From Balneolales bacterium (lineage in GTDB: Bacteria > Bacteroidota > Rhodothermia > Balneolales > Cyclonatronaceae), in contig JAIULZ010000033.1 of the NCBI GenBank assembly GCA_022565805.1, positions 1 through 33,126 of the forward strand: 33,126 bases of DNA, read 5' to 3'. How positions within the stretch are numbered: the stretch's first letter is position 1; each line of letters opens with the position of its first letter. Below, piece after piece: positions 296 to 11,395 of this stretch. Below the pieces are notes generated by a model. It did not search any database. It was not told where the DNA came from and worked only from the letters and a program-made list of their open reading frames with translations. A program made the position numbers and the translations under genes.

Positions 296-1342
296 TCAAG
301 TCTCCTTGTTCGAGACTCCGGCTTCCTCGAAACTTGCCATTTCCCGCAAAAAACGCGCAGCGCTTTCAATTAATGGATACGCGAGCGCGCAGCCGGTACC
401 CTCGCCCAGCCTGAGGTCGAGCTGCAGCAGAGGGGTTGCATCCAAATACTTCAGCATGATGCCGTGCGCCTTTTCGGCCGAAAGATGCGTAAAAACGCAG
501 AATTCTCTCAAACCGGGATGCATTTTATCTGCAACGAGACAGGCTGCTCCGGCTATAAATCCATCCACCAAAATCAGCATTCCACGCTTTGCGGCTTCCA
601 TCATTCCGGATGCTATCATCACAAGTTCAAAGCCTCCGAATGTTTGTAATACCTGCCCGGGATTTCTGTTCATCGCCACATCACTATGCTTTTTCATAGC
701 AGATTTCAGCAAATCGATTTTTCTGGCAAGACCCGCATCGTCAAGGCCGGTTCCGCGACCGACGCACTCATCTACCGCAATATCGCAGAGCGCGCTCATC
801 ACGGCAGAAGCCGAGCTTGTATTTCCGATTCCCATCTCGCCAAATCCTACGCAATTGCTCCCGGCTTCATGCACTTCCTTCACCAATAAACGTCCCTGTT
901 CAGCGCAAAAACCGTAGGTTTCTTCGCTCATGGCGGGTTCTTCGGTGAAATCGCGGGTTCCGTTTCCGGCGCGTAAATCCCGAATTTTACCTGTCTCAAA
1001 GCCGTAATAAGAATCCGGAAGTCGCTCCAAAACTCCGGCATCGGCGCAAATCAGCCGGAGTCCGTTTTGACGACAAAATACGTTTATTGCGGCTCCACCG
1101 GTGGCAAAATTACGCAGCATTTGCCCCGTAACCTCTGCCGGATATGCGCTTACACCCCGTTGCGCAATCCCGTGATCGGCGCCAAATACCAGCATCACAG
1201 GATTGCGAAGCACCGGACGCGTGCTGCCCAAAACCATACCCAGCTTAAACGCGAGCGTTTCCAGCTGACCAAGTGCACCAAGCGGTTTAGTCTTGGAATC
1301 GATGGCCATTTTCAGCTCTTTTTCTAAACGGGTTTTATTCAT
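296..1342 (-). CDS. cobT: Nicotinate-nucleotide--dimethylbenzimidazole phosphoribosyltransferase (CobT)
   Basis: This cytoplasmic enzyme transfers phosphoribose from nicotinate mononucleotide to dimethylbenzimidazole or a similar base, making the alpha-ribotide of the cobamide lower ligand. From the chosen start (MNKTRLEKEL) it has 348 residues, the usual family length. Visible family blocks are TKPLGALGQLE (18-28), FGADHGIAQRGVSAYP (53-68), GGAAINVF (82-89), FGEMGIGNTSSAS (167-179) and RLGEGTGCAL (311-320), whose Glu314 matches the catalytic glutamate of the family. The frame is open to an ATG at 1390, but those 16 extra residues resemble no family sequence. It is the last gene after the BtuB-like and BtuG-like genes, 99 nt behind the latter, and probably belongs to the same riboswitch-controlled transcript. 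No other cobalamin synthesis gene is in the window, which suggests salvage or remodelling. Confidence 0.95.
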   Translation of the reverse strand: MNKTRLEKELKMAIDSKTKPLGALGQLETLAFKLGMVLGSTRPVLRNPVMLVFGADHGIAQRGVSAYPAEVTGQMLRNFATGGAAINVFCRQNGLRLICADAGVLERLPDSYYGFETGKIRDLRAGNGTRDFTEEPAMSEETYGFCAEQGRLLVKEVHEAGSNCVGFGEMGIGNTSSASAVMSALCDIAVDECVGRGTGLDDAGLARKIDLLKSAMKKHSDVAMNRNPGQVLQTFGGFELVMIASGMMEAAKRGMLILVDGFIAGAACLVADKMHPGLREFCVFTHLSAEKAHGIMLKYLDATPLLQLDLRLGEGTGCALAYPLIESAARFLREMASFEEAGVSNKET

Positions 1343-1441
1343 GTTTTTATCTGGTGATGGTTTCCGGACACAACATGCATTAAGTGTCATAGATATGGCA
1401 CTTTTGGCTATGAAGCATCAATATCCATTTTTTTTGATGAT

Positions 1442-2767
1442 CTATTTTACCAGCATCATACTGCGGGTAATGGTTTCTGAACCCGCCGTTAAACGATACA
1501 GGTACATCCCGCTACTTAGTCCGGCAGCGTCGAATCCAACCGAATGCGCGCCGGCTGTATGCGAACCATTTGCGAGTACAGCCACACGCTGACCCAAAAC
1601 GGAAAATACTTCGAGACGAACATCCATGCTTTCGGCAAGCTCAAAACGGATGCGGGTTGTTGGGTTAAACGGGTTCGGATAATTTTGCATCAGCTGCATA
1701 CGGGAAGGATTTTCACCCGGCTGAACCGAAACCGGCGGCTCAGAATCTCCGGTAAACTGCACATACCCTGGGCCGATGCCAGTGGAGAAGGTGCCCGTAA
1801 TTTCGCCATCAGCTGTGCGAATATCTACGCGTCCGGCCGAGCTAAAATCTGGCGCGAAAGTCGCATAATAGGTTGTTTCGGCTGTGCCCCAAACGCCGAG
1901 AGCGAAATAAGCTGTTTCGAACAACAGATTTTCCTGAAGCTCAAAAGTGTCCATATCAACCAGCTGAACACCTTCGTTTACCACATAAGCACGTCGCGTA
2001 TTGTTGTTCAGGCGAAGGTTCTGCGGCTTCCCGCCCACTTCAATTCGCTCAACCACTTCATCGGTAGCCGGATCGATAACAACAATTTCGCCAAAGCTTT
2101 CGTCAGCATCACCAAAACCAAAATTACCGGTGCACATCACCCAAACAAAACCATCATTATCGGTTAGCAGAAAACGTGGGTTATCGTGCGCTGTAATCGT
2201 TTTAAGCAGCTCATCAGTAGCGATATCTACAACGGCAATCTGGTTTCCTTCACCAAATTCAGTAATCGCGATGTAGGCTTTTCCTTCGGAAACGGTAATA
2301 CCTTCCGGATTTGCGCCAACCGTAATCGAGCCCGTAATTTCAAGCGTTTCCAGATCTAAAATCGATATCGTATCGAGCAACAAATTGCTGATATACGCCT
2401 TTGTTTCCGAAACCTGCTCGATCCACTGCGGACTCGAACCGCCGAAATCATCCACGAAAATAGTTTCTACAGACTCGAAGCTGAGCGGATCTACGATTTC
2501 GATTTTATCAGAATTTCCAACAACAATAAAAAGCAGATCATTGATAAGCGCGCTATGCAAAGCCACATCACCAAGCGGGCGCCCGTTTACAGCTTCAAAA
2601 ATATTTTGCTGCACATCCCCGGTTTCGGGATTATAGGATGTGATGGAAGCATTACCCTGCAGAAAAGCACCTTGATTTACGATATATACCCGTTCCGGCT
2701 GCTCCTGCGCGGTGAGTGGTGCATATACAAAAAGTACTGCGATGATAAGTAGTAATAGTTGTTTCAT
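1442..2767 (-). CDS. BtuG-like surface beta-propeller with T9SS sorting domain
   Basis: The protein has 441 residues: a signal peptide (about 1-20, MKQLLLLIIAVLFVYAPLTA), a YncE/DUF5074-type propeller (about 25-345) with repeats such as ISILDLETLEITGSITVG and IVVIDPATDEVVERIEVGG, and a type A T9SS sorting domain (about 358-441; [26 protein letters not shown]). Known for the family: in Bacteroides, BtuG is a propeller lipoprotein that binds cobalamin on the cell surface and hands it to BtuB. Inference from context: 36 nt downstream of a BtuB-like receptor, behind a cobalamin riboswitch and ahead of cobT, this is very likely the cobalamin-capture partner. The oddity is that there is no lipobox cysteine after the signal peptide, and surface placement seems to rely on the C-terminal sorting domain. 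Alternatives are another YncE-like propeller or a secreted binding protein. Confidence 0.8.
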   Translation of the reverse strand: MKQLLLLIIAVLFVYAPLTAQEQPERVYIVNQGAFLQGNASITSYNPETGDVQQNIFEAVNGRPLGDVALHSALINDLLFIVVGNSDKIEIVDPLSFESVETIFVDDFGGSSPQWIEQVSETKAYISNLLLDTISILDLETLEITGSITVGANPEGITVSEGKAYIAITEFGEGNQIAVVDIATDELLKTITAHDNPRFLLTDNDGFVWVMCTGNFGFGDADESFGEIVVIDPATDEVVERIEVGGKPQNLRLNNNTRRAYVVNEGVQLVDMDTFELQENLLFETAYFALGVWGTAETTYYATFAPDFSSAGRVDIRTADGEITGTFSTGIGPGYVQFTGDSEPPVSVQPGENPSRMQLMQNYPNPFNPTTRIRFELAESMDVRLEVFSVLGQRVAVLANGSHTAGAHSVGFDAAGLSSGMYLYRLTAGSETITRSMMLVK

Positions 2768-2803
2768 GTTTTTATTAAGGTTGAGGTTGAGATTGAAGTT
2801 GAT

Positions 2804-5029
2804 TTAGCGGCTTGATCCGGTTAAGAAATAAAGCCGGATGCCGATTTCATGATGTCGTGGCGGCATCGGATATTGTGTTATAAACTGATAGGTCTGATTA
2901 GTGACATTTTTTGTCGCATAGCTTAGCTGCACTCGTACGCCGGTAATGGGCTTTAAGTCGAGTCCGGCCCTGAGATCGGCGGTGTAAAATGATGAAAGCG
3001 GATCGGCCGGACTGCTGTGATCGGCGGTCGTAAAACGATCACCGAAATAAGCCACTGATGCTCTTATGCTAAACGGCGCGCGGGCGAGTTCGAACGATGC
3101 TTTGTGCTGCCATTCGGGCACATAAACAAGCTGTTTCCAGACCGGCGCCTCCGATTCATTTACAATTTGAGGCGCTTCTGCTCTCGTTCGGATTACGGAG
3201 GCGCCGCCACGCAGTGTCCAATCGCCGAAGCTGACAACTGCGGAGAAGTCCAGCTCAAGGCCCCGGCTGCGTATTTCCGCGATATTTACCGGACTCCAAA
3301 TTCCACCTCTGCCCGGCACCCAGCGAATGCCGTCCTGGAAATCTGAGGCGTAAAAAGTAATGCCGCTTTCGACCCGAATACCTCGCCTCGGGCTTGCGGC
3401 GTAGCTCAAACCAACTTCCCGACTGAAGCTACTTTCGGGCCTGAGATCCGGATTTCCGCCCGAACTCCAGTATAAATCGTTGAGCGTGGGCGAACTCGCG
3501 TTTCGGCTTAGCTGTGCCCTCACCGCAAAACCATCCACCGGAAGCAAATAGCTGATTCCCGCAGATAGCATCCACTCATTTTCGATATCAGACAAAATGG
3601 CTCCACGAGCTGAGGGAATAATGGTGAGGCCCGGCAGCGGTGTCCACTCGGCATGCGTAAATGCGGCCTGACGCGAGCGGCTCACATCTTCCCGAAAATT
3701 ATTGGTGATGGCCTTTGTATTCGCATAATCGAGGCCCGTTACCAGCAAAAATGCCTCGGCCGGATTCCACTGCACCGACAGCCTTGATTCGCGTCGTCGC
3801 ACTTCGCTTTCACTCTCGATTCTACTTGCGGTATCGGTGTAATCCAGTCGGTAGTTTTCAATAAAAAATGCCGCTTCAAGCAAAATGTGGGAGCGAATAT
3901 AGCGCAGTCGATGCGAGTTTCTGAACCAGGCATCTTCCTGAACCGCACGTGGATTCCGAACTGTAATTGAAGCGGGTAAATGCTGCGAATGATCGGATAT
4001 CCAGAAGGATGTTTCATAATCGAGGGATGCGGGCGCATAGCTGTAGCCAGCGGTAATCATTCCGCTTTTCCTCTCGAATTGGCTGTTACGCCGAAGCTCT
4101 TCCCGACCTCGAAACGGATCAAAATACGGGTAATTTAGCTGTGCGCGGGAAGCATCTGCAAGAATCCCCAGCCGGAAAGAACCCGAATGCACACCGGCCT
4201 CAAAACCAAGCGACTGCTGCCCCCAGCTCCCATTTTGATGAGAAAAACCGATTCCGTTTTCGGGAACACGGCTCGAGAACAAAATATTTCCTCCGGCACC
4301 GCCATAGCCATAGGCCGCGGCAGCATTTCCCGTCGCAACCTGTACGTTAGAAGCGTATGCGGCGGGGATAAGGCTCAGGTCGGCATCACCCAGCATCGAG
4401 TGATTCAGCGCAAATCCGTTCCAGAGCAGTGGGGTTTGCCGGCTTCCAAAGCCTCTTGCCGAAACCGTTTGGAGTCCGCCCGGACCGTAATTCCGAATCA
4501 TGGCCGGGCTGCCGAAACTGAGCACATCACCCAGGCTACCGCCGTTTTGCGCCAGCGCTGCCGAATCTATTCGGGAAACATGAACGGGCTGTCGCAGCAG
4601 AGCAGCGCCAAAGCGACCGGCCGTAATGGTGATGACATCCAAATCGGCCCGAACAATCGTGGTATCGTTTGCCGCATTTCCTTGCGCTGTGGCGCTGAGT
4701 TCTGTAGTATAAAAACCTGGCAGGAAGCCAATGAACGTGAAAATCAAAAGCACAAACAGCAACAACCGGTCGCACGAAAATGCAGCTTTATAAAAGAACT
4801 TTCTTTCTCTCGCAGGGTGATGAATTCTGTGCCAAAATCCTGCTTCATAAGTATTAGACTGCTGTACTGACGCAGAAGTGTCACCCAAAAAATGAGCACA
4901 AAAATCCCATAAGAACCTTTGGAGGAATCGGCAAACAGCTGTGCAGAACAAAGCTATTAAGTATATAACAGAAGATAAAACACGGCCAATCAGCCGGATT
5001 TTACCCGTGCGGACATAGGGAGAATTCAT
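2804..5029 (-). CDS. btuB: BtuB-like TonB-dependent vitamin B12 receptor
   Basis: This is an outer-membrane receptor that would import cobalamin or other corrinoids using TonB energy. It has 741 residues. A TonB-box-like stretch DVITITAGRF (about 131-140) precedes the plug, which shows LGDVLSFGSPAMIRNYGPGG and SARGFGSRQTPLLWNG. The barrel follows and ends GIRLYF near the C-terminus; YQFITQYPMPPRHHEIG is the characteristic end of B12-type receptors. The substrate call rests mainly on the cobalamin riboswitch directly upstream and on the BtuG-like and CobT genes downstream. The N-terminus is unusual: about 112 residues precede the plug, with two hydrophobic stretches (about 14-36 and 88-105), and no internal Met near the second one, which looks like the real signal peptide (DRLLLFVLLIFTFIGFLPG). 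A non-ATG internal start is possible. Confidence 0.88.
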   Translation of the reverse strand: MNSPYVRTGKIRLIGRVLSSVIYLIALFCTAVCRFLQRFLWDFCAHFLGDTSASVQQSNTYEAGFWHRIHHPARERKFFYKAAFSCDRLLLFVLLIFTFIGFLPGFYTTELSATAQGNAANDTTIVRADLDVITITAGRFGAALLRQPVHVSRIDSAALAQNGGSLGDVLSFGSPAMIRNYGPGGLQTVSARGFGSRQTPLLWNGFALNHSMLGDADLSLIPAAYASNVQVATGNAAAAYGYGGAGGNILFSSRVPENGIGFSHQNGSWGQQSLGFEAGVHSGSFRLGILADASRAQLNYPYFDPFRGREELRRNSQFERKSGMITAGYSYAPASLDYETSFWISDHSQHLPASITVRNPRAVQEDAWFRNSHRLRYIRSHILLEAAFFIENYRLDYTDTASRIESESEVRRRESRLSVQWNPAEAFLLVTGLDYANTKAITNNFREDVSRSRQAAFTHAEWTPLPGLTIIPSARGAILSDIENEWMLSAGISYLLPVDGFAVRAQLSRNASSPTLNDLYWSSGGNPDLRPESSFSREVGLSYAASPRRGIRVESGITFYASDFQDGIRWVPGRGGIWSPVNIAEIRSRGLELDFSAVVSFGDWTLRGGASVIRTRAEAPQIVNESEAPVWKQLVYVPEWQHKASFELARAPFSIRASVAYFGDRFTTADHSSPADPLSSFYTADLRAGLDLKPITGVRVQLSYATKNVTNQTYQFITQYPMPPRHHEIGIRLYFLTGSSR

Positions 5030-5077
5030 AAAAATGACTTACTGAAACTTTTACCCGAAGTTTCCAGCGTCGGAACG

Positions 5078-5365
5078 TAAAGGCAGGTCTCCTGACTCTC
5101 CCGATAAGCGGCTGATGCGGCCTTCCCGTTTCGTTTTGGGCCTGAAACAGTGGCATTAGGCATCGGCCGTGAACCAGCATGATGAAGCAGGCGTTCAGCT
5201 TTTAAATATTGAACTGCGACCTAAGCCATTGGCTCGTAGTAGCAGAAAAGCTTTAGCTCAGCTTCGAATGCAGATCCCCGGAATTACAGTTGCGGGTACA
5301 GCTCCCGAATTTCACGGGATTCCCTTTTAATCGCTTGCGAAAGCGAACCAGCACATTCGTATTCT
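5078..5365 (-). promoter_or_regulatory. Cobalamin riboswitch (AdoCbl type)
   Basis: On the minus strand this leader shows, in order, the hallmarks of the cobalamin riboswitch: AAGGGAATCCCGTG, then AGCTGTACCCGCAACTGTAA (near 5288-5305), then the B12-box part TGCCACTGTTTCAGG (near 5142-5156), then GGGAAGGCCGC (5117-5127) and GAGTCAGGAGACCTGCCT (5081-5098). Its 3' end is about 50 nt before the BtuB-like start, which fits control by premature termination or by occlusion of the ribosome site when cobalamin is bound. Known for the class: ligand binding lowers expression of uptake and synthesis genes. The likely regulated unit is the receptor, the BtuG-like protein and cobT. The outer limits are estimates. 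Confidence 0.95.
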
Positions 5366-5449
5366 GATTGACGGATGATAGAGTTTTTTTCTATTAGTAC
5401 AAAAAGGATTTTTCGCAGACACAAAATGGATGAAAGTTTTTACAGTGCC

Positions 5450-5620
5450 AACAAAGTACTTCTCCGCCTTGGCGACTTTTTTGTTTAACCGCTAAGGTTC
5501 GCAAAATACGGTCGCTAAGGATGCGAAGATTTTAGTACTGTGATCTGCTTCGTGCCCTTCGCGAAATCCTTTGTGTACTTCGTGGTGAAGCTTTCCGGGT
5601 TACTGATTATTTCGGCAGAG
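5450..5620 (+). repeat. Dispersed palindromic repeat, copy 2
   Basis: The core at 5485-5589 begins TTAACCGCTAAGGTTCGC and ends TACTTCGTGGTGAA; the two arms are imperfect inverted repeats around a loop near 5530-5550. The left flank CCTTGGCGACTTTTT and the right flank TTTCCGGGTTACTG match flanks of the other copies. It lies upstream of the cobalamin riboswitch leader, so it may sit next to that promoter. Copy 3 follows after about 140 nt in the same orientation. Confidence 0.75.
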
Positions 5621-5689: not shown

Positions 5690-5850
5690 TTCATCTTAGT
5701 ACCTGATATTCCTTGGAGACTTATATTATTTACCGCGAAGGTTCGCGAAGTACGGTCGCTAAGGGCACGAAGTTTGAAGTGACTTGATCCGCTTTGTGCC
5801 CTTCGCGAAATCCTTCGTGAACTTCGCGGTAAAATCTTCCGGGTTACTTT
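5690..5850 (+). repeat. Dispersed palindromic repeat, copy 3
   Basis: This is the most symmetrical copy. The core at 5729-5833 begins TTTACCGCGAAGGTTCGCG and ends GAACTTCGCGGTAAA, with the internal arms GGGCACGAAG and TTTGTGCCC flanking the loop. The left flank TTTCATCTTAG and CCTTGGAGACTT and the right flank CTTCCGGGTTACT are shared with other copies. The rest of the gene-free stretch 5366-5999 outside copies 2 and 3 is AT-rich and presumably holds the promoters for the B12 unit (minus strand) and for the lipoprotein gene at 6000. I could not define either one. Confidence 0.8.
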
Positions 5851-5999: not shown

Positions 6000-7199
6000 A
6001 TGAAAAACTACTTTATATTTATCCTCGCAGCGTTTTTATTGTGTATAGCGGTGATGGGGTGCAGTAGTGATGACAAGTTGCCCGATGTTCCGGAACATAT
6101 CATGGAATTGGAAAATCTTACAGTCTATTCCCGAGACGCGGAACTTGCTGCAACATTTACTTTTCAGAAAGATGCCAGCTATGGAGATACGGAGGAGGTC
6201 ATTATTGGCAGGATTCAAGATGTTGCCGTAGATGGTTCCGGCCGGGTTTTTGTCGCCGATACTGGTCGAATGGTTATACATGTTTTTGAACCGGAGGGTC
6301 AATACAATAATCAGCTGGGAAGGGATGGCCGCGGACCTCGTGAATTTAGCTTTATCAAAAGCATACAGATAATTGGGGATCAAATGTTTGCCTTCGACTC
6401 CTCTGCTGGTAGGGTAAATATTTTTTCGCTTGAAAACCTGTCGGAAGGGGAAACGGTATCATTGGGCCAAAATCGCAGTAATTTTTCGGGTTTATCCAGA
6501 GCATATCCTGCTATAAATCATTTATATGCAAGAACTGATGGTACTTATTTAGTCAGATTTATTTCAACTGAAGAGAATACTGCTTCACTTCAACATTGGC
6601 AGAATTTTGAGATGAAGGGCTTGTATTACCTTTTGGGAAGTGCCGGAAATATCCAAGAACATCAGTTTGATTATTTCTATGAAAAACGGGTGATGTTCCC
6701 CAGTGGCAATGCGGCATTAGGCATACACCTGATTGATTTTTTGGGGACTACGCAGTCCGCTATTTCAAATAAAGATCAACTTTATTTAGCAAAGCCAGAC
6801 AACTTTTTGGTAAAATCCTACGGTCCGGACGGAGTTTATAGAAGAGCTTTTTATTTTCCTATCAAGAAAGTCCCTTTAACACTGGAGTCTGCAATTGAAG
6901 CCGGAGTTTTGGATATGTTTACCAGTAATATGTCCAACATGGACCTACCCGAATTCTGGCCAGTTGTAACCGATCTGAGAATTGATAATCAGAATCGCCT
7001 TTGGGTTGCCACCACTGTAGATGATATGAGTATTTATGAATGGTGGGTGCTGGAAAATACCGGAGAGCTCATCACCCGGTTCGACTGGCCGCGAAATAAA
7101 CCGATTAAATTTATTAATGACACCCATATTTACACCATTGAAACCGATGATGAAACTGATCTCCAAAAAGTGGTTCGGTATCGGATTGAAGTGATGTAA
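6000..7199 (+). CDS. 6-bladed beta-propeller (NHL-like) lipoprotein, function unknown
   Basis: The product has 399 residues with a lipoprotein signal (MKNYFIFILAAFLLCIAVMG, then Cys21), so it should be anchored in the outer membrane or periplasm. It has the look of the Bacteroidota 6-bladed beta-propeller family: IQDVAVDGSGRVFVADTGR (about 71-89), FEPEGQYNNQLGRDGRGPREF (about 92-113, the diagnostic GRGPxEF block) and later RIDNQNRLWVATT. No catalytic residues are apparent. Substrate and partners are unknown; the family is thought to bind ligands or proteins. The gene stands alone between two pairs of palindromic repeats and appears more AT-rich than the B12 genes or the receptor operon. A transcript of its own is likely. 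Confidence 0.85.
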   Translation: MKNYFIFILAAFLLCIAVMGCSSDDKLPDVPEHIMELENLTVYSRDAELAATFTFQKDASYGDTEEVIIGRIQDVAVDGSGRVFVADTGRMVIHVFEPEGQYNNQLGRDGRGPREFSFIKSIQIIGDQMFAFDSSAGRVNIFSLENLSEGETVSLGQNRSNFSGLSRAYPAINHLYARTDGTYLVRFISTEENTASLQHWQNFEMKGLYYLLGSAGNIQEHQFDYFYEKRVMFPSGNAALGIHLIDFLGTTQSAISNKDQLYLAKPDNFLVKSYGPDGVYRRAFYFPIKKVPLTLESAIEAGVLDMFTSNMSNMDLPEFWPVVTDLRIDNQNRLWVATTVDDMSIYEWWVLENTGELITRFDWPRNKPIKFINDTHIYTIETDDETDLQKVVRYRIEVM

Positions 7200-7204
7200 A
7201 TATT

Positions 7205-7347
7205 ATGATAAAACACTAAGGATCGCGAAGTACGGTCGCTAAGATCACGAAGGTCTATCTGCTTTGATCCGCTTCGTGCCCTTCGCGAAATCATTCGTGT
7301 TCTTCGCGGTGAAGCCATCCGGATTGCTGTCTATTTCGGAGCTCATC
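7205..7347 (+). repeat. Dispersed palindromic repeat, copy 4
   Basis: The core at about 7211-7313 contains GATCGCGAAGTACGGTCGCT and ends TTCTTCGCGGTGAA, and it starts only about 11 nt after the stop of the preceding lipoprotein gene. The right flank CATCCGGATTGCTGTCTATTTCGG-type block and GAGCTCATC match copy 5 closely, so copies 4 and 5 are the most recent pair or have been homogenised. The left outer flank found in copies 1 and 5 is missing, so this copy is truncated on that side. Confidence 0.75.
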
Positions 7348-7373: not shown

Positions 7374-7612
7374 TGACCAGCGAATTAGCTCGAATTAACG
7401 TGGATTTAAATCGCTCTCCAATAAGAATTGATTTCATCTTAGCAATTAATCTTCCTTCGCGACTTTTATTATTAACCACCAAGTTCGCGAAGTACGGTCG
7501 CCAAGGGCACGAAGTTTGAAGTGGCTTGATCCGCTTCGTGCCCTTCGCGAAATCATTCGTGTTCTTCGCGGTAAAGCCATCCGAGTTACTGTCTATCTCG
7601 GAGCTCATCCTC
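7374..7612 (+). repeat. Dispersed palindromic repeat, copy 5 (longest)
   Basis: This is the most complete copy. The left flank has CCAGCGAATTAGCTCG, a GGATTTAAATCGC block and GATTTCATCTTAG, then CTTCCTTCGCGACTT. The core at 7472-7575 begins TTAACCACCAAGTTCGCG and ends TTCTTCGCGGTAAA. The right flank ends with GGAGCTCATCC. It aligns over nearly its full length with the inverted copy 1 at 35-270, which suggests a complete element of about 230-240 bp. No open frame long enough for a transposase is inside, so if mobile it would depend on an enzyme encoded elsewhere, in the manner of a miniature element. Confidence 0.78.
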
Positions 7613-7834: not shown

Positions 7835-10800
7835 TTATTTAATGAGCATCATCTTGCGGGTTTCGCTAAAGCTGCCGGCCTGTATGCGGTATAAATACAT
7901 TCCGCTCGACAGACGCTGCGCATCGAACTGCACGTTGTGGCGGCCGGCTTGCTGCTGCTCGTTCACCAATAGCGCCACGCGCTGCCCCATAAGATTATAC
8001 ACCTCTATGCGAACAGCTACATCTTCGGGAAGCGCATAGCTGATAACAGTGGTGGGGTTAAACGGGTTAGGATAGTTTTGCTGAAGCTCAAATGCTATCG
8101 GAAGATCATCAACAGGTGTAGAAGTTGAAGTGAATACGGTGAAGGCAAATACTTCTGACCAATCTCCTGTTTTTTCTTCGTTGTTACCGCGAACTCTCCA
8201 GTAAAATGTGGAGCCATCCTGCGGGAACTCCTGTTCTGCAAGCAGTTCTGTGCCTTCCAGTCCTTCAGCAGAAAAGAAAACGGTGCCATCAGCAAAGCTT
8301 TCGTCAGTAGCAACTTCAATATCATAATTGTCTGAGAAATCTGCTGCTGACCAAACAAACTCAATAAAGGCATCAAGGTCTTCTTCACCATCGCCGGGGC
8401 TAACTAGTGCTACCTGCTCGGGAGAGTTTAATTCGGTACGGAAAGTCCATACATCCGACCATTCGCCGGGTCCTGCCGGATTTACGCCGCGCACTCTCCA
8501 GTAATAGACTGTAGATTTCAGCAGGCCACTAAACTCCTGCTCCGTGTCTGAAAGGGAAGCTGAAAGTACCGAACCGGCAAAATCTTCGCGATCAGAAAGC
8601 TGTACCTGATAGCTAACCGAGCGACTGTCTGCTTCCCAGCTAAGCATGGTTTCAACCGGAATTGCCGTAGCGCCATTCTCAGGAGAACTCAGGCTTATGG
8701 TAAGCGGGAAACCTTCCAGCAGATTCAGGTTTACTTCTACTGCCAATACCGGGCTGTCAGGATCATTACTTTCAACATGTATTATTGCCGAGTAAGTACC
8801 GGGCTCAAGAGCGGAAGTGTTAATTCCAAACTCAATTTCCTGCTCATCGGTATAACCTAAAGATCCGCCTGTAACCATCAGGTCTAGCCATGTTGCTGCA
8901 TCTTCATTTCCTGAAGCCACTTCAACAGAAAATTCGAGCATTTCCAGTCCTACATTTTGTAGCATAAACGAAGAGGTCATATCCTGTTCGAGAACCGTAA
9001 TGAGGCTGATGCTCTCCTTATTTACTACCGCCTTTGGAGTTTCGGGAGCACCCGATAAGGTATACACTACAGGAATTTCTATAAGCGAGTTGGCAGGATC
9101 GTTGGAAGTAAGGAACAGCGTTGCGCTGTAGGTTCCGGGCGCGGTTGAGGTGTCGAAGTTCAGGAAAGTACTCAGGCTTCCTTCTCCTTCAATTGAACCG
9201 GCTGCCGGACTAACCATCAGCCATCCGTTGTCGCCTCTGAGGCTCACGTTGTCGAAATATGCGGCTTCTTCATCATTGTTGTTATCCGACAGAAATACGA
9301 TCTGCTCAACGTTTGGAGCCGCAATAATGGGTCCGGTATGAACAAGGTCTCCATCAACAAAGTAGCGGATGCTTCCATTCTCGGCGTCGAATTCTTTGGA
9401 GAAATTAAACCATGTTCCGGTCTCGTACGTACCCACAACCTGAAAACCAAGTCCGGTACCTGAAGGACCAAGTACAGACATATTGCCATCAGCTCCGAAT
9501 CGGAAGCGAGTTGAAAGTTGTCCGAATCCCGGAGATTGCAGAATTACATCGTAGTTTGCGCCACCCGTATCTTCTACATAAATATCTGTTTCCATAGTAT
9601 AGAACATAAATCCGGAATCGATAACCGGCGAGCGAACACCAATATTGTTCCCGCCCGGCGTACCTGCCTGCCGGGCAAGCATTAACGACTGCGAACCATC
9701 GTTTGCGAACTCATCAGTAATTACCGGCTGCGTAGTACTCGCCTGCAGGGCTGTCCAGCCATTTTGTCCGCCGGCAAAACCAGTTTCAAAACCTTCTTCT
9801 GCCTCAAATGAGGTTTCGATGCTTTCAGAAAAAGATGCGATTCCAACAGGATCTTCCAGTCTCGGTCCAATAGCGGCGGTAGATCCTTCTACCCAAACTC
9901 CGTTTTGCTCCCAGCCGTAGCTTTTTATTTCGCGGGATTCTTCGTTGTCGTAGTTCACCGAAATACTATAGCTGAGAATACCGGGCTTGGAGTTAAACAG
10001 CTGCAGCTCTTTAGATAAATTCTGACCAACAAATCCCTCTACTTCAAATGAAGTTTCGGATAGGCTAAGCTCGGGTGGCCCGAGAGTTGCAAGTAGCAGA
10101 GACTGATACAGGTTAAGGCGACCTCCGGTAATTGTAGTTGTAGCAAAAGCCGGAACTTCGTCTACGCTGTTTAAAATCCACTCGCGAATTTCAGCGTATG
10201 TAGCATCGGGTACTTGTGCCTTAAGAATTGCAGCAGCACCGGCTACGTGTGGACTTGCCATTGAGGTGCCCGATAAAACTGTATATCCGGCTGCATTGAT
10301 ATACGTACTGCGAATCTGATCGCCGGGAGCTCCGAGGTGTACGGTATTTGCACCAAAATTAGAGAAACCGCTGCGTCCGTCGGTACGGGTAGAGCTTGCA
10401 ACAGAAATTACGTTAGGCAAATTATATCCGGCTGGATAGAAATTCTGATTGTCGTTATTATTAGAGCTATTGCCCGCTGCGGCTATTACAAGGTGACCGG
10501 CCTGCAGCGCGGCCTGTATTGCGTTAAATCCAGCCTGTGAAAATCCGGGACCTCCCCAGCTGTGGTTCGAAATCTGTGCGCCGTTGTTTATGGCAAACTG
10601 TAAACCCTGTACCATTGCGGCACCATTACAGCTTGGGGAACCATTAGCACCACAAATTTTAATATTCATTAAGGTAACATCCCAGTTTACCCCAACCACG
10701 CCAACTCCGTTGTTACCCACCGCACCAATAGTCCCGGCCACGTGTGTACCGTGTCCGTTCAAATCTTCGGTTGTGTTGTCTACAAAACTACGGCCATTAT

Positions 10801-11395
10801 TACCATTTTCATCGAACCAGACATTATCTACAAGGTCGGGATGATCACTTTTTATACCAGAATCGAATACGGCTACGATTACATCGTGCGAGCCGGTTTG
10901 CATAGACCATGCATCTACAGCGCTGATGTCGGCACCAACAACTCCGCCAGACTGACCCGTATTTCGCAGACCCCAAAGCTGTGCAAACTGTGGATCATTT
11001 GGAATTACATTTTGTAAGGCTTCATCCAAAAGGTCATTCTCATCGATAATTACATCCGGAAGGTAGTACACGAAATTAGGCTCTGCAAAAACAACATCAT
11101 CGCGGCTGTTAAGCATCGCTATAGCTTCCTGCACGGTTCCGTTTTTAAAATCCCAAAGCTCGGCATTAATAAGCTCAAGCGGTGTAACCTGCTGTACTTC
11201 AAATGTTTGTTTTAGTTGTGCATAATCTGCAGAGCTTAAAGAGGGCGCGAATTCAACTACAATCTGACCTTCGAGAAACTCAATCATTCCTATTCCTGGC
11301 ACTTCTTCATGCAGAATTTGCTGGGCTTTCGCAGTTGAAAAACCGCTAAAGATCAGCAAGAAACCGCAAAGAAGCAGCTGTATCATTTTTTTCAT
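7835..11395 (-). CDS. Subtilisin-like (S8) serine protease with T9SS sorting domain
   Basis: This is an exported endopeptidase of 1186 residues. The order is: signal peptide (1-24), an inhibitor_I9-like propeptide region (about 40-112), the S8 catalytic domain (about 145-435) with Asp178 in VAVFDSG, His215 in GHGTHVAG, oxyanion Asn309 in AAAGNS and Ser378 in [11 protein letters not shown], a beta-sandwich region, a concanavalin-like segment (about 535-735) with [12 protein letters not shown], further Ig-like repeats with TSNDP or ESNDP, two fibronectin-III-like repeats containing YYWRVRG or FYWRVRG, and a type A T9SS sorting domain (about 1105-1186; [18 protein letters not shown]). The full catalytic triad predicts activity on proteins outside the cell. 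It is a single-gene unit with its own terminator, preceded by about 650 nt without genes. Confidence 0.95.

Follow-up and report, generated by a model that had tools for sequence, protein, structure and literature searches.

The window examined here, 33,126 nucleotides long and the whole of one contig from the 4.47 Mb draft genome of a Balneolales bacterium, carries on its minus strand a cobalamin riboswitch followed by a btuB-like receptor gene, a btuG-like propeller gene and cobT. From the sequences and a structural model, we consider it quite probable that receptor and propeller function together as a BtuB-BtuG lid system in which BtuG arrives at the surface as cargo of the type IX secretion system (T9SS), not as a lipoprotein. 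BtuB is a TonB-dependent channel, and BtuG caps BtuB and passes vitamin B12 on; cobalamin riboswitches repress when B12 is present. T9SS cargo is carried by SprA and trimmed by PorU. As the window protein lacks a lipobox cysteine and a lipoprotein export signal, we call it a T9SS-sorted BtuG homologue and not a BtuG lipoprotein. A sequence-only reading of this DNA had named all four elements, and each is present, by matches to RF00174, to the Plug and TonB barrel domains, to DUF5074 and to TIGR03160, respectively.

The propeller has the fold and the gripping loop of BtuG

The btuG-like gene (1442..2767, minus strand) encodes 441 residues, and no other BtuG match occurs in the genome. Residues 22-340 (1748..2704, minus strand) make up a seven-bladed propeller with the BtuG fold. 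The open reading frame (ORF) matches DUF5074 with an E-value of 1.4e-16, and its best Protein Data Bank (PDB) chains by sequence are BtuG, at E-values of about 1e-27 to 1e-24. An AlphaFold2 model of the protein has a mean predicted local distance difference test (pLDDT) score of 89, rising to about 95 in the propeller. When this model was compared with the PDB by Foldseek, ranks 1-16 were all BtuG1, BtuG2 or BtuG3, so that the likeness to BtuG claimed from the sequence is borne out by structure comparison. The top match was BtuG3 with bound cyanocobalamin (8okv; template modelling (TM) score 0.90 by target length, 2.2 Å), and other propellers were weaker, with TM scores of 0.66 for E. coli YncE and 0.71 for the B12-binding BtuK1.

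BtuG2 holds cobalamin by the loop Asn54-Thr64 (NEGNFQYSNAT) together with a loop of blade 5 (PMC10404256). Alignment to BtuG2 places the counterpart of this "pliers" loop at residues 31-41 of the window protein (NQGAFLQGNAS; 2645..2677, minus strand). Among the 45 tailed homologues of the survey described below, N54 is kept in 44 and G56 in all 45, F58 in 42 of the 43 that have a residue there, and N62 in 41. Conservation of the loop is similar in lipoprotein BtuGs, and few parts of the family are as well conserved. The position of Tyr335 is aromatic in all 45 tailed proteins. Loop conservation thus supports corrinoid binding as a predicted property of the window propeller.

A sorting tail stands in place of the lipobox

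Both ends of the protein point to export by the T9SS. The N-terminus reads MKQLLLLIIAVLFVYAPLTAQ up to the predicted cleavage site and EQPERV after it; this is a signal peptide of the signal peptidase I type, with no cysteine and no lipobox (residues 1 to ~21; 2705..2767, minus strand), delimited from the sequence and from the distances between site and NQG motif in tailed homologues. The propeller is followed by a flexible linker (about residues 344-356; 1700..1738, minus strand), whose pLDDT is below 50 at residues 344-355, and then by a type A T9SS sorting domain with the motif NYPNPFNP (residues 357-441 plus the stop codon; 1442..1699, minus strand). Por_Secre_tail/TIGR04183 matches residues 363-437 at 41.5 bits against a cut-off of 23. 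In the AlphaFold2 model the tail is a well and separately folded all-beta domain, and a genome-wide tail search recovered it again.

The genome also encodes parts of the secretion machinery, namely SprA, PorU (979.7 bits) and, adjoining PorU, PorV (286.5 bits), and it holds about 115 type A tails. The plain signal peptide without lipobox and the type A sorting domain that the sequence-only reading had described are all found, and the T9SS route that it proposed gains support from the curated tail model, from SprA, PorU and PorV in the genome and from the distribution of lipobox and tail over 137 loci, given below.

One further tailed protein lies in the window, an S8 subtilase with a type A T9SS tail (7835-11395, minus strand). 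Its tail is as near to the tail of the window BtuG as any BtuG tail is, and a similar protein is found upstream of btuB in a same-genus genome (G104, locus L032).

The receptor resembles BtuB of Bacteroidota

The btuB-like gene (2804..5029, minus strand; ORF of 741 residues, true start uncertain) encodes a TonB-dependent receptor with Plug and TonB barrel domains. Its best PDB chains are BtuB from the BtuB-BtuG complexes of B. theta, at E-values of 2.4e-40 to 4.7e-38, against 5e-6 or worse for E. coli BtuB. The best-matching model, TIGR01779, describes the enterobacterial BtuB equivalog, and the receptor scores 53.5 bits on it, below the cut-off of 599.7. Judged by these matches, the window BtuB is of the Bacteroidota type.

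The ORF is about 60-100 codons longer than those of same-genus relatives, the extra part lying after the riboswitch and ahead of the apparent signal peptide (4770-5029). Its first ~85 codons may be untranslated, with a GTG or TTG near 4753 as the real start; with that start, a long leader would be available for riboswitch control.

Lipobox and tail exclude each other across btuG loci

The survey drew 296 genomes of the phylum and 245 of the window's class, the two draws overlapping, and 140 further btuG loci were fetched. Loci were classed by a lipobox pattern and by a tail model built from non-BtuG proteins only. Among 137 usable BtuG proteins, 91 had a lipobox only, 45 a tail only, none both and one neither; the lipobox pattern is crude, six calls having been corrected by eye (four lipoproteins whose cysteine site it had missed and two spurious lipoboxes within signal peptides), and the source genomes are drafts with some gene starts miscalled. 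The single protein with neither (L147) is a frameshift, and its tail can be read in another frame, which brings the homologues with a tail in place of the lipobox to 46. In an independent test with the curated model, TIGR04183 was found in 45 of 45 tailed and in 0 of 89 lipoprotein homologues. The lipid-cysteine column is invariant in the lipoprotein forms (89/89). The two forms also differ in their N-terminal linker, with a median of 20 residues from the lipid cysteine to the N[EQ]G motif in lipoproteins versus 9 from the estimated signal-peptidase site in tailed proteins.

The sequence-only reading had made its case depend on a link of homologous genes to btuB or to cobalamin riboswitches, and in the genomes of the class such a link exists: btuB lies immediately upstream of btuG in 111 of 112 loci, the exception being a contig end, and a riboswitch lies upstream in most. 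Close relatives that carry names are Balneolia and Balneolales metagenome-assembled genomes, in keeping with the Balneolota to which the sequence-only reading had pointed. Seven Balneolia-type genomes among the named relatives are tailed, and Saprospiraceae, Hymenobacter, Spirosoma, Bacteroidales and others have lipoproteins. No relatives were found on viral contigs.

Two simple accounts of the swap were tried and rejected. A lipoprotein paralogue that does the real job was not found, as each tailed genome has a single BtuG match, apart from one with two tailed copies. A general loss of lipoprotein export was examined through SusD-family partners, which were present in 11 of the 12 tailed genomes searched. 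By the crude pattern 27 of 30 SusD-family genes in tailed genomes have a lipobox, and none of the 30 has a tail; the remaining three look like miscalled starts or frames. Since SusD-type partners stay lipoproteins in tailed genomes, the swap is not genome-wide.

Six tailed BtuG frames (L138, L143-L146 and L148; f2, g153) have about 45-70 extra residues ahead of the propeller. This extension is possibly real and not a start error.

The tail appears to have been acquired several times

In this survey tails were confined to the class of the window, with 0 of 26 in the rest of the phylum sample. Within the class, tailed proteins fall into f1 with f51 (the window's group), part of f2, a group of f8, f12, f13 and f16, and a small set in f54 and f15. 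Lipobox and tail states co-occur within single families and even within single genus codes.

A carefully built tree of 84 propeller domains required four state changes, with 4-5 over 200 bootstraps and three forced by well-supported branches; a quick tree of all 137 gave four changes for the tail, two of them forced. A single origin of the tail is not supported, as none of the 200 bootstrap trees gave one change. The count of changes alone leaves their direction undecided, but all sampled outgroups are in the lipoprotein state, which makes gains of the tail simpler than losses. Tails of different clades are about equally close to C-terminal domains (CTDs) of unrelated proteins as to one another, a pattern that agrees with separate acquisitions without proving them. 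From these trees we estimate about four switches between the two states.

Proposed mechanism and alternatives

When cobalamin is scarce, the riboswitch would permit expression of the operon, as in its family, and BtuB would take its place as a TonB-dependent channel. By analogy with known T9SS biology, BtuG would cross the inner membrane via its signal peptide and then pass the SprA pore via its C-terminal tail, which PorU would cut off. As homology to BtuB-BtuG suggests, the propeller would catch corrinoids with its conserved gripping loop, dock on BtuB as a lid and pass the vitamin, and CobT may assist in giving salvaged corrinoids a new lower ligand. Because the tail is removed by PorU in known systems, we infer rather than observe the anchoring of mature BtuG that the sequence-only reading ascribed to this route. 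PorU in P. gingivalis has been proposed to couple cargo to a glycolipid (PMC4560394), and retention is most likely by a surface glycolipid tether and/or by docking on BtuB. A propeller closes on itself with its ends usually near each other, so a shift of attachment from the N- to the C-terminal side may well leave its seating on BtuB unaltered.

Several observations weigh against a tethered, corrinoid-binding lid. The hinge of the B. theta lid is a lipid-linked N-terminal linker (PMC10404256), and this linker is missing from the window BtuG. The glycolipid link in P. gingivalis needs VimA (PMC7468200); a clear VimA homologue was not found in the genome (21.4 bits versus a cut-off of 260, from a model that is not pathway-specific), and tethering by the P. 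gingivalis chemistry is therefore uncertain. In the binding pocket, the BtuG2 aromatics Trp194, Tyr239, Tyr316 and Tyr335 are each replaced by Phe in the window protein, and Trp272 by Lys. It is possible, though on balance we doubt it, that BtuG is a T9SS-exported, PorU-processed corrinoid carrier without a lipid of its own, serving either as an extracellular B12 carrier or as a lid held by BtuB alone. If so, the lipid-anchored hinge considered important in Bacteroides would not be essential, and one and the same capture protein would have changed its export route about four times.

BtuG might instead be a released corrinophore, freed by cleavage of its tail, that picks up corrinoids from the medium and comes back to BtuB much as a haemophore would. 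CTDs are removed by PorU and P. gingivalis cargo without a glycolipid acceptor is released (PMC4560394), B. theta BtuG2 is able to act from outside in trans (PMC6143338), and the lack of a clear VimA match in the genome fits here as well. We nevertheless regard release as unlikely. The BtuG-BtuB interface is very large (PMC10404256), so that unattached BtuG might remain on BtuB; btuG directly follows btuB at almost every locus; and in open water or sediment a protein set free would presumably be lost at a cost.

It is far less probable that the propeller has lost corrinoid binding and has another job beside btuB, for example as an adhesin or an enzyme of the YncE/YVTN group. Each of the five named pocket aromatics is replaced, in one case by lysine, and the generic propeller models PQQ_ABC_repeats and YVTN also match the protein. 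However, BtuG structures outscore all other propellers by a wide margin, the gripping loop ranks with the most conserved stretches, and linkage to riboswitch and btuB is nearly universal. Four of the five substitutions stay aromatic, and the altered positions vary among lipoprotein BtuGs too, that of Trp272 freely across all BtuGs. We give least credence to an ordinary FlgD-like domain, in which the C-terminal Ig-like domain would be no secretion signal and the protein would be periplasmic. A weak FlgD_ig match (21 bits) lies below its cut-off, whereas TIGR04183 and Por_Secre_tail exceed their curated cut-offs and the NYPNPFN motif is present in a genome with T9SS core genes and about 115 tails. 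Moreover, a periplasmic role does not explain why the tail is found exactly where the lipobox is missing. We therefore retain the lid system with a T9SS-exported BtuG as the preferred reading.

Riboswitch, cobT and neighbouring elements

The cobalamin riboswitch (RF00174; 5065..5367, minus strand; model positions 1-189) scores 76.4 bits against a gathering score of 31.5, lies on the coding strand 35 bases ahead of the first ATG, and is the only copy in the genome. It has a long insertion in a peripheral arm: about 135 of its bases have no alignment to the Rfam model, and in same-genus relatives the element is overall shorter. Folding of 5065-5367, with the extended arm, showed ordinary stability (z -0.93).

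The cobT gene (nicotinate-nucleotide-dimethylbenzimidazole phosphoribosyltransferase; 296..1390, minus strand) matches TIGR03160 at 402.6 bits against a cut-off of 319.3, and the 51-base spacing suggests that it is probably co-transcribed with the btuG-like gene. The unit order given by the sequence-only reading, with cobT last, holds in the window, but cobT was not seen after btuG in the first three same-genus genomes fetched (G104, G022 and G112). The adjacency is thus not kept within the genus, and membership of cobT in the unit would be peculiar to this genome or to few lineages.

Just upstream of the riboswitch stand two copies (5467-5604 and 5711-5848) of an intergenic repeat, about 120 bases long and palindromic in part. 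Further copies lie in the window at 7218-7328, 7468-7590 and 75-179, and the genome has 12 matches, half of them on this contig. Adjoining the B12 operon on the opposite strand, 6000-7199 (plus strand) encodes a DUF5128-type six-bladed propeller, a plain lipoprotein with the lipobox VMGC.

Comparison with known systems

In the literature that we found, BtuG is described as a surface lipoprotein only; whole lineages here appear to use the T9SS instead. No paper was found that joins BtuG with Balneolota, or that links the T9SS either to vitamin B12 or to lipoprotein swaps, subscription papers being mostly outside the search. These loci widen the view of BtuG beyond that of an essentially gut Bacteroidetes protein, and part of the family will escape searches in which a lipobox is required. 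An either/or rule together with several independent switches would amount to a clean natural experiment. It raises the questions whether the BtuB-BtuG lid needs a lipid hinge, whether the T9SS and surface lipoprotein routes are interchangeable for the partner of a TonB receptor, and whether members of saline and soda-lake communities share their B12 capture proteins or retain them.

With T9SS type A cargo the window protein has in common a Sec signal peptide, a C-terminal sorting domain, and PorU and SprA in the genome. HBP35 of Porphyromonas gingivalis binds haem; it is not known to be a propeller, to form the lid of a TonB receptor or to be under a vitamin riboswitch. It is a CTD protein (PMC4560394), and like the window BtuG it is a nutrient-binding protein placed outside the cell. 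BtuH, BtuJ1/J2 (DUF4465) and BtuK1 (PDB 9s6c), other B12-binding accessory proteins of Bacteroidota, resemble the window protein in capturing corrinoids in association with btuB. Of these, BtuK1 has a propeller as well, at Foldseek rank 18 and much more distant (TM score as above), while BtuH and BtuJ1/J2 belong to different families. DUF4465 proteins are mostly lipoproteins, the rest having periplasmic signals, and a T9SS tail is not mentioned for them (PMC13398666).

With the BtuG1, BtuG2 and BtuG3 lipoproteins of Bacteroides (Wexler 2018, PMC6143338; Abellon-Ruiz 2023, PMC10404256), the window protein shares the seven-bladed fold, the cobalamin riboswitch, the btuB neighbour and the gripping loop. 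It differs from them in having neither lipobox nor lipoprotein export signal, in its short N-terminal linker and in its C-terminal T9SS domain; and its type occurs not in gut Bacteroidales but in Balneolia and related families.

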